DNA of 64,000 nucleotides, from positions 101,421-165,420 of the forward strand of contig NZ_QSBV01000002.1 in NCBI RefSeq assembly GCF_003465825.1, read 5' to 3'. The first letter of the stretch is position 1. The number at the start of each line of letters is the position of its first letter. Positions 20,475 through 59,324 of this stretch are shown one piece after another. The notes under the pieces were generated by a model. That model ran no database searches. It had not been told where the DNA came from and saw only the letters and a list, made by a program, of their open reading frames with translations. A program made the translations under genes and the position numbers. The DNA comes from Collinsella sp. AF02-46-1. GTDB taxonomy: Bacteria; Actinomycetota; Coriobacteriia; Coriobacteriales; Coriobacteriaceae.

Positions 20475-21491
20475 ATGACCCAACCAGTTCGCACCGCACC
20501 TACGCTTGCCGAGGTTGCCGCAGCTGCCGGCGTGTCGCGCTCCACGGCATCGCGCGCCCTCAACGATTCGCCCCGCATTAGCGAGGAAACCAAAAAGCGC
20601 GTCCGCGCGGCGGCCAAGGAAGTCAATTTTGTCCCCAACGCTCGTGGCCGAGCGCTCGCTGTCGGGCGCACGGAAATCATCGCCGTGCTCGTGACCGAGC
20701 CCCTGAGTGAACTCTTCAGCGACCCCACCTATAGCGAGTTTTTGAGCGGCATTACCGAGGAACTGTCGGAGTCGTCCTATCTGCCCGTTATCTTGCAGGC
20801 GTCTTCTACGCATGAGCGCAACCGCGCACGCGAGCACTTTGAGCGCCGCTCGTTCGACGCCGTGATCGACGTCTCCCCCTACAAGGGCAGCGAGCTGCTC
20901 GAGGTGCTGCGCGAGCTGGGTGTACCCACCGTGTTGTGCGGCCAGCTCGAGGGCCACCCCTATCGCGATGTGTTCTCGACAGTCTACTCTGACGACGAAG
21001 AGGGCGGACGCTTTGCAGCGCTCGCTATGAAAGAGCGCGGGCGCAAAGATATCGTCGCCGTGTTGGGACCGCAAGACAACCCCGCTGTTGTCGACCGCCT
21101 GCGCGGCTACCGCGCCGCCTTGGGCGAAGACCTCCCAGACGCAAACGTTATCTATACCGGCTGGAACAGCGGAGACGGCTATCAGGCCATGCACCAGATC
21201 CTCGCGCGCGAGATTGCTTTCGATGGCGTGCTCTGCGGATCGGACCGTATCGCGGCTGGCGTCATCACCGCGCTCAACGAGACAGGCCTATCCGTTCCGG
21301 CGGACGCTTCTGTCGTCGGCTTCGACGATCACGAGATTGCGACGCGCTGCGTCCCCGCGCTCACGACCGTCCGCCAGCCCCTGCGCGAAGAAGGCCACAT
21401 GGCCGCCAACATTGCGCTCGACATGATCAAGGGTGCCAAGCCAACCACCACCGTCATGCACATGCAGCTCGTTCAGAGAGACTCGCTATAA
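20475..21491 (+). CDS. LacI-family transcriptional regulator (ebg locus)
   Basis: 338-residue LacI-type protein: helix-turn-helix TLAEVAAAAGVSRSTASRAL (about 10-29), hinge with a conserved Ala-Leu pair (ARGRALAVGR), and sugar-binding domain with the GFDDHEIATRCVPALTTVRQP segment. ATG at 20475 follows CAGGAG. It is divergent from ebgA with three TGCAACCGGTTG palindromes between them, so it very likely represses ebgAC. Its recognition helix (STASRAL) differs from that of the uxa regulator (NTVHKAL), as expected from the different operators. Confidence 0.9.
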   Translation: MTQPVRTAPTLAEVAAAAGVSRSTASRALNDSPRISEETKKRVRAAAKEVNFVPNARGRALAVGRTEIIAVLVTEPLSELFSDPTYSEFLSGITEELSESSYLPVILQASSTHERNRAREHFERRSFDAVIDVSPYKGSELLEVLRELGVPTVLCGQLEGHPYRDVFSTVYSDDEEGGRFAALAMKERGRKDIVAVLGPQDNPAVVDRLRGYRAALGEDLPDANVIYTGWNSGDGYQAMHQILAREIAFDGVLCGSDRIAAGVITALNETGLSVPADASVVGFDDHEIATRCVPALTTVRQPLREEGHMAANIALDMIKGAKPTTTVMHMQLVQRDSL

Positions 21492-21497
21492 GAAACT

Positions 21498-21698
21498 GGG
21501 ACGGGCTTTCCGCCAGACAGTTGTTGCGGAAAGCCTGTCCCGTTTTGAGTGCTCATTCTGGGGCACAGTTTCCGTTAGACCGCTCAACCGGAAACTGTGC
21601 CCCATTATTTTGCCGAATTCTGGGTCGCGCTTTCCCAGAGGACCCCCTTTGGGAAAGCGCGACCCGTTCTGGACGCAGATTCCGGGACGCACTTTCCG
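21498..21698. repeat. 62-bp-period hairpin array
   Basis: Three complete hairpins start at 21498, 21560 and 21622, exactly 62 bp apart, each with a 15-bp stem, 14-base loop and 18-base spacer. A fourth left arm starts at 21684 on the same register without its partner. The stems are different sequences that share GGGnC...TTTCC; two pair perfectly and one has a single G-T pair. It fills the gap between convergent lacI and aspS. Confidence 0.85.
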
Positions 21699-21742: not shown

Positions 21743-21773
21743 AACGAGGGAAGGCACACGTCCTTCCCTCGTT
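21743..21773 (-). terminator. Terminator after aspS
   Basis: Twelve-base-pair stem AACGAGGGAAGG/CCTTCCCTCGTT with a 7-base loop, followed on the minus strand by TTTTTT. Confidence 0.9.
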
Positions 21774-23584: not shown

Positions 23585-23840
23585 ACCAGTGATCCTCCTT
23601 TATGGATCTGTGCCGCCCCGTGTCGTTCCGGGCGGCGTCGTACAGATTTGCCCAGCCTGCGTAAACCGCGCAGCCAGACATGGCGTTCTATCTTATCGCA
23701 CTCGCGTCGATGTGCCGCGAAAAAGTGGCTCCTGCCCAAAGACTTGACGGAGACGAAACAATTGACGCGCCGCGACACCCGCCCGCGCTCGTCACGTGCG
23801 ACAATATGCCCCAATAAAACAGCACTCGGAAAGGCCCGCC

Positions 23841-57796: not shown

Positions 57797-57886
57797 CGCT
57801 TTACGCCCGCGCCTCGACCGAGGTTCGAATCCATGCAGTGCTTACGTAAAAGAAAAGCCCCCGTTGCCGGGAGCTTTAATCTCAAA
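57797..57886 (-). repeat. Left end of the tRNA-Arg repeat cluster, with terminator
   Basis: Contains the CGAGGTTCGAATCC segment and a terminator AAGCCCCCG-TTGC-CGGGAGCTT (57855-57876) followed by TTTTCTTTT on the minus strand. Same unit end as the later copies. Confidence 0.6.
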
Positions 57887-57905
57887 TGGTGCGGCGTATA
57901 GGATT
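57887..57905 (-). pseudogene. tRNA-Arg(ACG) 3' tail remnant 1
   Basis: Nineteen bases identical to the last part of tRNA-Arg including CCA; the identity stops inside the T loop, and a GC-rich segment takes the place of the tRNA body. Confidence 0.75.
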
Positions 57906-58030
57906 CCGCGCATCCGCTGCGCGGATCCGCACCGGCTTCGCCCGCCTGCCGGCGTGCTCGCCCGCGGGCTAAAAACGCTCCGCGTTTTCTTTACGCCCGC
58001 GCCTCGACCGAGGTTCGAATCCATGCGGTG
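57906..58030. repeat. GC-rich segment 1 replacing a tRNA body
   Basis: Roughly 120 bases of nested GC hairpins (for example GCGGATCCGC, GCCGGC, GCCCGCGGGC), related to 58331-58450 and 58761-58880. One end joins GGATTC and the other GAATCC, the two halves of the tRNA T-loop palindrome. Confidence 0.65.
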
Positions 58031-58044
58031 TTTACGTAAAAGAA

Positions 58045-58066
58045 AAGCCCCCGTTGCCGGGAGCTT
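58045..58066 (-). terminator. Terminator of tRNA-Arg copy a
   Basis: AAGCTCCCG-GCAA-CGGGGGCTT (minus strand) then TTTTCTTTT, 11 bases past the CCA end. Variants of this terminator follow every unit of the cluster: 57855, 58280, 58480, 58710, 58899 and 59139. Confidence 0.85.
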
Positions 58067-58076
58067 TAATCTCAAA

Positions 58077-58153
58077 TGGTGCGGCGTATAGGATTCGAAC
58101 CTATGACGTTCTGATTCGTAGTCAGACCCTCTATCCAGCTGAGGTAACGCCGC
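58077..58153 (-). tRNA. tRNA-Arg(ACG), copy a
   Basis: Acceptor GCGGCGT/ACGCCGC, anticodon arm TCTGA-CTACGAA-TCAGA giving ACG, T arm ATAGG-TTCGAAT-CCTAT, discriminator A and encoded CCA. Confidence 0.97.
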
Positions 58154-58279
58154 GACTTGTTGATTATTATGCACATCGACTGAATAATGGTCAAGCGTTT
58201 TTTCAAAAAAAGTTATTGAATTTGATTTTTACTCATTTTGACCCCTTGATGCGATCTTCGACGCATCGCGATATAAGAA

Positions 58280-58301
58280 AAGCCCCCGTTTCCGGAGGCT
58301 T
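58280..58301 (-). terminator. Terminator of remnant 2
   Basis: AAGCCTCCGG/CGGGGGCTT stem on the minus strand with an AAA loop and trailing T-rich sequence. It follows a tRNA tail rather than a whole tRNA. Confidence 0.75.
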
Positions 58302-58311
58302 AAAACTCAAT

Positions 58312-58330
58312 TGGTGCGGCGTATAGGATT
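58312..58330 (-). pseudogene. tRNA-Arg(ACG) 3' tail remnant 2
   Basis: Same 19-base tRNA tail with CCA, broken at the same point in the T loop as remnant 1. Confidence 0.75.
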
Positions 58331-58450
58331 CCGCGCATCCGCTGCGCGGATCCGCACCGGCTTCGCCCGCCTGCCGGCGGACTCGCCCGCTCGCTAAAAA
58401 CGCTCCGCGTTTTCTTGACGCTCGCGCCTCGAACGAGGTTCGAATCTCCG
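58331..58450. repeat. GC-rich segment 2 replacing a tRNA body
   Basis: Close relative of segments 1 and 3, somewhat diverged at its distal end (CTCGAACGAGGTTCGAATC instead of CTCGACCGAGG...). Confidence 0.65.
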
Positions 58451-58501
58451 CAATGTCCCCGTAAAGGAAAAGCCTCCGTTGCCGGGAGCTTTAAAGTCAA
58501 T

Positions 58502-58578
58502 TGGTGCGGCGTATAGGATTCGAACCTATGACGTTCTGATTCGTAGTCAGACCCTCTATCCAGCTGAGGTAACGCCGC
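58502..58578 (-). tRNA. tRNA-Arg(ACG), copy b
   Basis: Identical to copy a over the tRNA, including encoded CCA; followed by its own terminator at 58480-58501. Confidence 0.97.
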
Positions 58579-58741
58579 AACGCACGGATTATTATGCACG
58601 TGACCCCTCGATGGGTCAAGCGACAATTTGGAAAAATTTTACGAAGTGATGATTAAGACGCTCGCGCCTCGACCGAGGTTCGAATCTATGCGGTGGCGGC
58701 ATAAAAGAAAAGCCCCCGTTGCCGGAGGCTTCAAGTTCAAT
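58579..58741. repeat. 163-bp segment duplicated at 59008-59170
   Basis: The sequence from the 5' side of copy b to remnant 3 is repeated, apparently base for base, between copies c and d. It indicates a recent tandem duplication. Confidence 0.8.
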
Positions 58742-58760
58742 TGGTGCGGCGTATAGGATT
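58742..58760 (-). pseudogene. tRNA-Arg(ACG) 3' tail remnant 3
   Basis: Third 19-base tRNA tail with CCA, broken at the same T-loop position and followed downstream by the terminator at 58710-58731. Confidence 0.75.
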
Positions 58761-58880
58761 CCGCGCATCCGCTTCGCGGATCCGCACCGGCTTCGCCCGC
58801 CTGCCGGCGCGCTCGCCCGCGGGCTAAAACGCTCCGCGTTTTCTTTACGCCCGCGCCTCGACCGAGGTTCGAATCCATGC
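58761..58880. repeat. GC-rich segment 3 replacing a tRNA body
   Basis: Near-identical to segment 1, with local change of the tip (GCTTCGCGG for GCTGCGCGG) that keeps the hairpin. Confidence 0.65.
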
Positions 58881-58930
58881 GGTGTTGCCATAAAAGAAAA
58901 GCCCCCGTTGCCGGAGGCTTCAAGTTCAAT

Positions 58931-59007
58931 TGGTGCGGCGTATAGGATTCGAACCTATGACGTTCTGATTCGTAGTCAGACCCTCTATCCAGCTGAGGTA
59001 ACGCCGC
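58931..59007 (-). tRNA. tRNA-Arg(ACG), copy c
   Basis: Identical to copies a and b including CCA; terminator at 58899-58920. Confidence 0.97.
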
Positions 59008-59170
59008 AACGCACGGATTATTATGCACGTGACCCCTCGATGGGTCAAGCGACAATTTGGAAAAATTTTACGAAGTGATGATTAAGACGCTCGCGCCTCG
59101 ACCGAGGTTCGAATCTATGCGGTGGCGGCATAAAAGAAAAGCCCCCGTTGCCGGAGGCTTCAAGTTCAAT
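59008..59170. repeat. Second copy of the 163-bp segment
   Basis: Repeats 58579-58741, including the terminator at 59139-59160. Confidence 0.8.
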
Positions 59171-59173
59171 GGG

Positions 59174-59247
59174 TGCGGCGTATAGGATTCGAACCTATGA
59201 CGTTCTGATTCGTAGTCAGACCCTCTATCCAGCTGAGGTAACGCCGC
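59174..59247 (-). tRNA. tRNA-Arg(ACG), copy d (no encoded CCA)
   Basis: Same tRNA body as copies a-c, but the 3' flank reads CCC where the others read CCA, so CCA must be added after transcription. It lies nearest the putative upstream promoter. Confidence 0.94.
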
Positions 59248-59324
59248 AGCGCATAACATATAAAACCACTTTAGCTTATTGGAGTCAAGCACAATCTCAA
59301 ACTTTTTTGTGGAACGCAGTTTTG

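Follow-up and report, generated by a model that had tools for sequence, protein, structure and literature searches.

A dispersed family of phased intergenic repeats in Collinsella, probably BIME/REPIN-like, with arms that are candidate protein-binding sites

The intergenic region between a lacI-family gene and aspS in Collinsella sp. AF02-46-1 (contig NZ_QSBV01000002.1 of assembly GCF_003465825.1, positions 101,421 to 165,420; this whole stretch of 64,000 nucleotides is referred to here as the window) contains an array of seven 14 bp arms of the form GGGN6TTTCC, which lie at 21498-21697 on alternating strands with steps of 30, 32, 30, 32, 30 and 32. Such arrays are dispersed in Collinsella genomes; they are phased, carry an oriented spacer, are nearly invariant at the GGG and TTTCC positions in orthologues of the two loci compared, change by whole units and, in one instance, form a hybrid array. 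On balance we favour the view that the array belongs to a clade-specific family of intergenic DNA repeats in Collinsella, similar to bacterial interspersed mosaic elements (BIMEs) and to the doublets of repetitive extragenic palindromic (REP) sequences known as REPINs (REP doublets forming hairpins), and that its arms are predicted binding sites at the DNA level. A protein-binding array was one of the options offered in a preliminary description of the window, which was made from the sequence alone.

That description had reported three hairpins and a lone left arm with an exact 62 bp period; both the sequence and a repeat finder agree, returning inverted arm pairs at 21498/21528, 21560/21590 and 21622/21652, an unpaired left arm at 21684 and periods of 62, 62 and 62. 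Its statement that each stem has its own complement holds for stems 2 and 3, in which complementarity is perfect over 15 bp (stem 3 extends to 20 bp at 95 %), and slightly overstates stem 1, which contains a single G-T pair. The neighbouring genes are convergent, as described, with the LacI family assigned by Pfam and aspS backed by its leader RNA. The array also exceeds chance, as had been supposed: GGGNCNNNNTTTCC occurs seven times in the window, always inside the array, against 0.48 expected and a maximum of three in 100 shuffles. Folding of 221 nt as RNA gives -127.3 kcal/mol compared with -72.3 in shuffles (z -11.3), and the same 221 nt under DNA folding parameters give a z of -10.7. The probability that chance or an assembly artefact explains the array is negligible, since reversed-pattern controls gave no match in 43 genomes and separate assemblies of relatives contain the same array at the orthologous position.

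A search with the LacI-family protein placed the window in the Collinsella aerofaciens group; it matched 14 Collinsella loci, and identity was 91-98 % for 11 of these. Nine of the 14 contain the array (L031-L035 and L037-L040, where L and G numbers are our own labels for loci and genomes), with five arms in L040; L036 is partial at a contig end, L041 has one degenerate arm and L042-L044 have no array. The search of related genomes that had been proposed as a check was likewise positive, the strict 44 bp hairpin pattern being present in 22 of 43 Collinsella genomes at 11-34 copies each, with none for the reversed-pattern controls. In a class-wide sample of 396 genomes, 22 matched: 21 belong to the 40 Collinsella sampled, and the remaining genome had a single match. 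In the nearest genome a shorter arm pattern gave 50 matches against 12 for controls. The arrays are extragenic: 40 of 44 overlap no called open reading frame (ORF), and the remaining four overlap the 5' end of one, where the crude ORF caller may have over-extended the start. A viral origin was considered and set aside: the nine IMG/VR stretches that match the pattern each hold a single isolated pair, with arms unlike the family in seven of the nine. Among the matches listed from open-licence PMC papers, we recognized no report of such repeats for Collinsella, Coriobacteri- or Actinobacteria.

Arms were placed in the window and in 40 stretches from five genomes (three of the stretches had no array), giving 305 arms in 44 arrays of 2-17 arms each. 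The preliminary description took the hairpin as the repeating unit, but the real unit is offset from it: 46 bp of the form GGAAAN6CCC-N18-GGGN6TTTCC, that is, an arm(-), an 18 nt spacer and an arm(+), with successive units joined head to tail through linkers of 16, sometimes 15, nt. The spacing between arms is therefore about three helical turns, and their orientation alternates. Over all loci, duplicated loci included, the linker step is 30 (374 cases), 29 (55) or 31 (3), and the spacer step is 32 in 478 of 491 cases, otherwise 31 (11), 30 (1) or 33 (1). The smallest isolated copies are single arm(-)-18-arm(+) units, for example at 2774-2819 of L179 and in its orthologue in L180, and '-' to '+' is the commonest pair of array ends (21 of the 44 arrays, followed by '+' to '+' in 13, '-' to '-' in 8 and '+' to '-' in 2). 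Spacers share an oriented motif, approximately RGAATNNRSSYTCRGAAY, with a log-likelihood per sequence of -15.09 versus -16.87 (SD 0.33) in symmetric controls (n 93); the same test detected no orientation in the linker (-16.79 versus -16.90). Neighbouring units are co-oriented in 90 cases and opposed in 18 when orthologues are included, and in 24 and 4 cases in the window and G005 alone, so that an array is mostly a head-to-tail repeat. The arm consensus is GGGAYRYRSTTTCC, and at positions 5-8 the family mostly has Y, R, Y, R (0.99, 0.96, 0.89 and 0.92).

The arms are strongly constrained in orthologues. Among nine lacI-aspS orthologues (alignment A1 without L040; A1 itself omits L036 at a contig end, the collapsed array of L041 and the array-free L042-L044), GGG differs at 0 of 756 pair-sites, TTTCC at a rate of 0.018 and the arm middle at 0.175, compared with 0.086 for the linker, 0.071 for the spacer and 0.069 for lacI third codon positions. 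Adding L040 gives 0 of 891 for GGG, 0.017 for TTTCC, 0.21 for arm middles, 0.13 for linkers and 0.10 for spacers. In the nine orthologues without L040, changes in arm middles are about 2.5-fold more frequent than those in third codon positions of lacI, a pattern resembling sequence exchange between units. At a second locus (18 of 21 rows, omitting L206 with an indel shift, L207 with the left half of its unit replaced and L208 with an inverted unit), the values are 0 of 918 for GGG, 0.032 for TTTCC, 0.13 for the spacer and 0.154 for the adjoining flank.

Pairing between the arms is a different matter. Paired change in every unit had been taken as a sign of selection on the fold, and this does not extend to the family: over 106 non-redundant hairpins, paired arms agree on average at 3.12 of the six variable positions versus 2.91 when shuffled (P = 0.021), and at 2.99 versus 2.89 (P = 0.14) without the lacI-aspS array. 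When 49 hairpins are tabulated position by position, the numbers of Watson-Crick, G-T and A-C combinations are near expectation, the largest departure being at position 4 (z 2.2). The stem covariation across the family that would be looked for in a structured RNA was thus not found, beyond a weak mean excess at some redundancy cuts and a local exception at lacI-aspS; with arm matches near shuffled values, we reject fold selection for the family as a whole and keep it as a local possibility. Nearly independent arms, with GGG and TTTCC fixed and the middles changing, are better fitted by independent protein-binding arms than by RNA folding.

We hypothesize that each arm is separately bound by a putative DNA-binding protein, with direct readout of GGG and TTTCC and readout of the YRYR middle by way of DNA shape. 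Array length may change by in-register recombination or slippage between units, and occasional arm-to-arm correction at the hairpin could make some stems perfect, as in the window array. Candidate roles in the cell are a topology anchor, a boundary between convergent genes and a recombination joint. Several observations weigh against binding sites of this kind. Arm middles at the second locus, unlike those at lacI-aspS, change about as rarely as TTTCC (0.034 versus 0.032). Because most of the conserved positions must be present for the finder to accept an arm, invariance across the family is partly built in; the orthologue test avoids this bias but covers two loci. Depending on the redundancy cut, the mean arm match is sometimes slightly above that of shuffles, with P of 0.004 (n 138), 0.021 (106), 0.047 (74) and 0.23 (35). 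There are more perfect 6/6 hairpins than expected (10 of 106 versus 2.1, and nine versus 2.0 without the lacI-aspS array, which in the window contains two perfect ones), the excess ranging with the redundancy cut from 13 versus 3.1 to one versus 0.4. Perfect pairs across the spacer are likewise in excess (7 of 99 versus 2.0), with the mean match not raised (P = 0.20), and the minority of perfect stems looks like the product of episodic arm-to-arm correction. The lacI-aspS locus does show some covariation: ten orthologues have eight cells changed on both sides versus 3.0 in shuffles, and the score of 0.099 versus 0.066 was reached by none of 500 shuffles, with low scores in slid controls, although the result rests on five base pairs changed on both sides and related rows may exceed shuffles even without structure. 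Taken against the tests on the family, this covariation is local and confined to a few pairs, with a weak trend at most across the family. The raised arm match, the surplus of perfect hairpins and the local covariation are what one would expect of a role for the fold. Finally, a transposase resembling the REP-associated tyrosine transposases (RAYTs) co-occurs with the arrays, so that arm conservation might reflect transposition ends instead of host binding sites.

The family has close parallels among known repeats. BIMEs, as presented in excerpts from PMC2817692, are extragenic clusters of short, regularly spaced motifs in alternating orientation, and the Collinsella arrays are likewise repeated and extragenic, with regular units in alternating orientation; BIME-2 of E. 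coli is described in part of PMC6379681 as a preferred gyrase site. Excerpts from PMC3733652 and PMC3116915 define REPs as imperfect palindromes of about 20-40 (up to 60) nt. The Collinsella arm differs in not being a REP palindrome: it is 14 nt long, eight arms folded alone gave -0.3 to -1.9 kcal/mol, and against 200 shuffles seven of the eight folded no better (37-132 shuffles fold as well) and one folded better (4). No head of the GT(A/G)G type is present in its consensus, nor one of the GTAG or CGTC type as given in PMC3733652 and PMC2817692, and its spacer, unlike that of BIMEs, is oriented. With REPINs, as outlined in excerpts from PMC3116915, the family shares two inverted conserved ends, a less conserved spacer and the occurrence of single copies as well as ordered tandem clusters, and the isolated 46 bp units show that its smallest copy is indeed an inverted pair. 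Regarding transposition of single units, unit number varies at one site and no clean empty site was seen at the sites compared; in contrast to REPIN/RAYT systems, the RAYT-like gene of Collinsella is not flanked by arms. Whole-unit copy-number change and a mostly head-to-tail orientation are shared with ordinary tandem repeats (of the variable-number type), yet the Collinsella units differ strongly while 8 of 14 arm positions are nearly fixed, and they occupy many dispersed sites. We conclude that the array family is probably new, BIME/REPIN-like in appearance and probable working and not a proven member of either class, because it has no REP head, its arms are not self-palindromic and the RAYT-like gene is not arm-flanked.

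One alternative places the function in the transcript, the array being a bidirectional terminator, a stabilizer of mRNA 3' ends or a processed hairpin RNA with its fold under selection. The very stable folding, the paired changes at lacI-aspS and the excess of perfect hairpins speak for it, as does a bias of array sites toward convergent 3' ends: 21 of the 44 arrays are between convergent genes, 11 between divergent and 10 between tandem genes, with two undecided, whereas the shares of intergenic bases (window and ten other loci) are 0.21, 0.21 and 0.58, and 7 of 13 hand-grouped sites are convergent (P = 0.009; the 13 omit the accessory locus described below, one mixed-context site, one with an uncalled neighbour and sites outside the 44-array set). 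Against it stand the 11 arrays between divergent genes and the small average covariation across the family. The array has no Rfam match at gathering thresholds, its stems lack a T run, and a terminator-like site belonging to aspS is present outside it, at 21743-21773. A terminator scan found three sites versus 0.7 expected, and the two inside the array are 5-6 bp stems. MicroRNA-precursor models in one array locus, L126, scored below gathering (34.9 of 70 bits, E 0.00012, and 22.8 of 68, E 0.75) and were dismissed as hairpin look-alikes. We regard a transcript-level element as improbable.

Alternatively, the arms could be the ends of a REPIN-like non-autonomous element recognized by a RAYT (Y1 transposase), with arrays that accumulated or were tandemly duplicated and are now mostly fossil, which we consider unlikely but well worth keeping in mind. 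Excerpts from PMC3116915 describe REPINs as extragenic inverted pairs with a spacer, in single and clustered copies, which the arrays resemble. Y1_Tnp genes are found in 37 of 43 Collinsella genomes, and a RAYT-like orthologue (70-100 % identity), which scores as Y1_Tnp above the curated cut-off, is present in 21 of the 22 array-bearing genomes and in none of the other 21 (Fisher P = 2e-11). The array-bearing genomes appear from identities in the LacI search to be one clade, so this striking association may go back to one event only. Stops interrupt the RAYT frame in five genomes and G031 holds just a 32 % relative, yet all six still carry arrays. Moreover, no arm scoring at least 9 (a cut below which about 5 % of known arms would fall) lies within about 1.5 kb of the RAYT-like gene at 21 orthologous loci, and none was found at ten Y1_Tnp loci in G001-G005, which are partly the same genes; RAYT adjacency was rejected on these counts (0 of 21 and 0 of 10). 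Among the best 30 Y1_Tnp loci, one (L073) has a phased array and three have a single stray arm match; in L073 (1501-1857 and 2259-2366), an IS200-type transposase gene lies about 400 bp from an array. Some Y1 subclasses are not associated with REPs, according to part of PMC6006769. Finally, at two sites compared there is no clean empty site, and collapsed forms retain one arm or a remnant.

Array length varies at individual sites. At the L179 site, 13 of 19 genomes have one unit, two have two, two have three and two have four (counted with both anchors and a short interval, and thus omitting L207, with 1479 bases between anchors, L208, with no left anchor, and L209-L217, with a single anchor each), and the last unit is recognizably common to all. 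At the L106 site too the arrays differ in length, and in five genomes a single arm or its remnant is all that is left. In L208 (G013), comparison with the orthologues shows an exact inversion of the unit beside the right anchor, as an inversion between its two arms would produce. An accessory locus (L248-L266) beside a xanthine-dehydrogenase-like gene (L126, 5073-7850) was compared in 20 of 27 matching genomes, 19 array-clade loci and one array-free relative. Here DUF234/ATPase_2 and weakly AbiEi-like ORFs come and go, often bounded by arrays. Wherever a 999 bp ORF, weakly AbiEi-like, was called (9 of 9 loci), an array lies on each side of it. Of the ten array-clade loci in which this ORF was not called, L259 has two arrays in the interval, L258 none and the other eight one. 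A 1392 bp ORF family (ATPase_2/DUF234; PADLOC candidate PDC-S27) was called in 14 loci, with arrays on both sides in seven. The hybrid array, in L252, precisely combines two arrays that in other genomes lie on either side of an accessory gene. Up to base 85 it equals the left one, as in L253, except at base 9, and its bases 78 to 108 equal the right one, as in L262, with the overlap TTCTGAGC; it is one clean case, and its genome has no 999 bp ORF. L251, L264 and L265 look like left-array units fused to the right flank with further small loss. Tentatively, and with the odds rather against it, we suggest that the arrays are recombination joints, phased and predicted protein-bound repeats between which in-register exchange adds, removes and swaps accessory genes. 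If so, they would explain the turnover of accessory, partly defence-like genes at fixed sites.

The features of the lacI-aspS array and its neighbours are listed below. Elsewhere in the window, tandem repeats of 240 and 429 bp occupy 57803-59295 and carry four minus-strand tRNA-Arg (ACG) genes.

Table 1. Coordinates in the window of the array, its parts and the adjoining genes
Feature	Position	Strand	Basis or remark
Whole array: 7 arms, 3 linkers, 3 spacers, period 62	21498..21697	.	Sequence, repeat finder
LacI-family regulator gene	20475..21491	+	Pfam; stop codon 6 nt upstream of array
Arm 1 GGGACGGGCTTTCC	21498..21511	+	
Linker 1, 16 nt	21512..21527	.	Within hairpin 1 of the preliminary description
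Arm 2 GGGACAGGCTTTCC	21528..21541	-	One G-T pair against arm 1
Spacer 1, 18 nt	21542..21559	-	Oriented motif read on minus strand
Arm 3 GGGGCACAGTTTCC	21560..21573	+	
Linker 2, 16 nt	21574..21589	.	
Arm 4 GGGGCACAGTTTCC	21590..21603	-	Perfect partner of arm 3
Spacer 2, 18 nt	21604..21621	-	Orientation as spacer 1
Arm 5 GGGTCGCGCTTTCC	21622..21635	+	
Linker 3, 16 nt	21636..21651	.	Lengthens stem 3 to 20 bp
Arm 6 GGGTCGCGCTTTCC	21652..21665	-	Perfect partner of arm 5
Spacer 3, 18 nt	21666..21683	-	Orientation as spacers 1 and 2
Arm 7 GGGACGCACTTTCC	21684..21697	+	The 'lone' arm; completes last unit (arm 6 - spacer 3 - arm 7)
Intrinsic-terminator-like site of aspS	21743..21773	-	12 bp stem and T run, outside array
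aspS, 595 aa	21797..23584	-	Convergent toward array; name from preliminary description and aspS leader RNA
aspS leader RNA	23596-23679	-	Rfam RF02930, 76.1 bits; 5' of aspS

The lacI-aspS array illustrates a trap, in that locally convincing covarying hairpins can belong to a family with nearly independent arms. With these arrays a common human gut genus gains a phased intergenic repeat family of its own, the arms of which are under strong constraint, and such strongly constrained arms offer a clear target for finding the putative binding protein.
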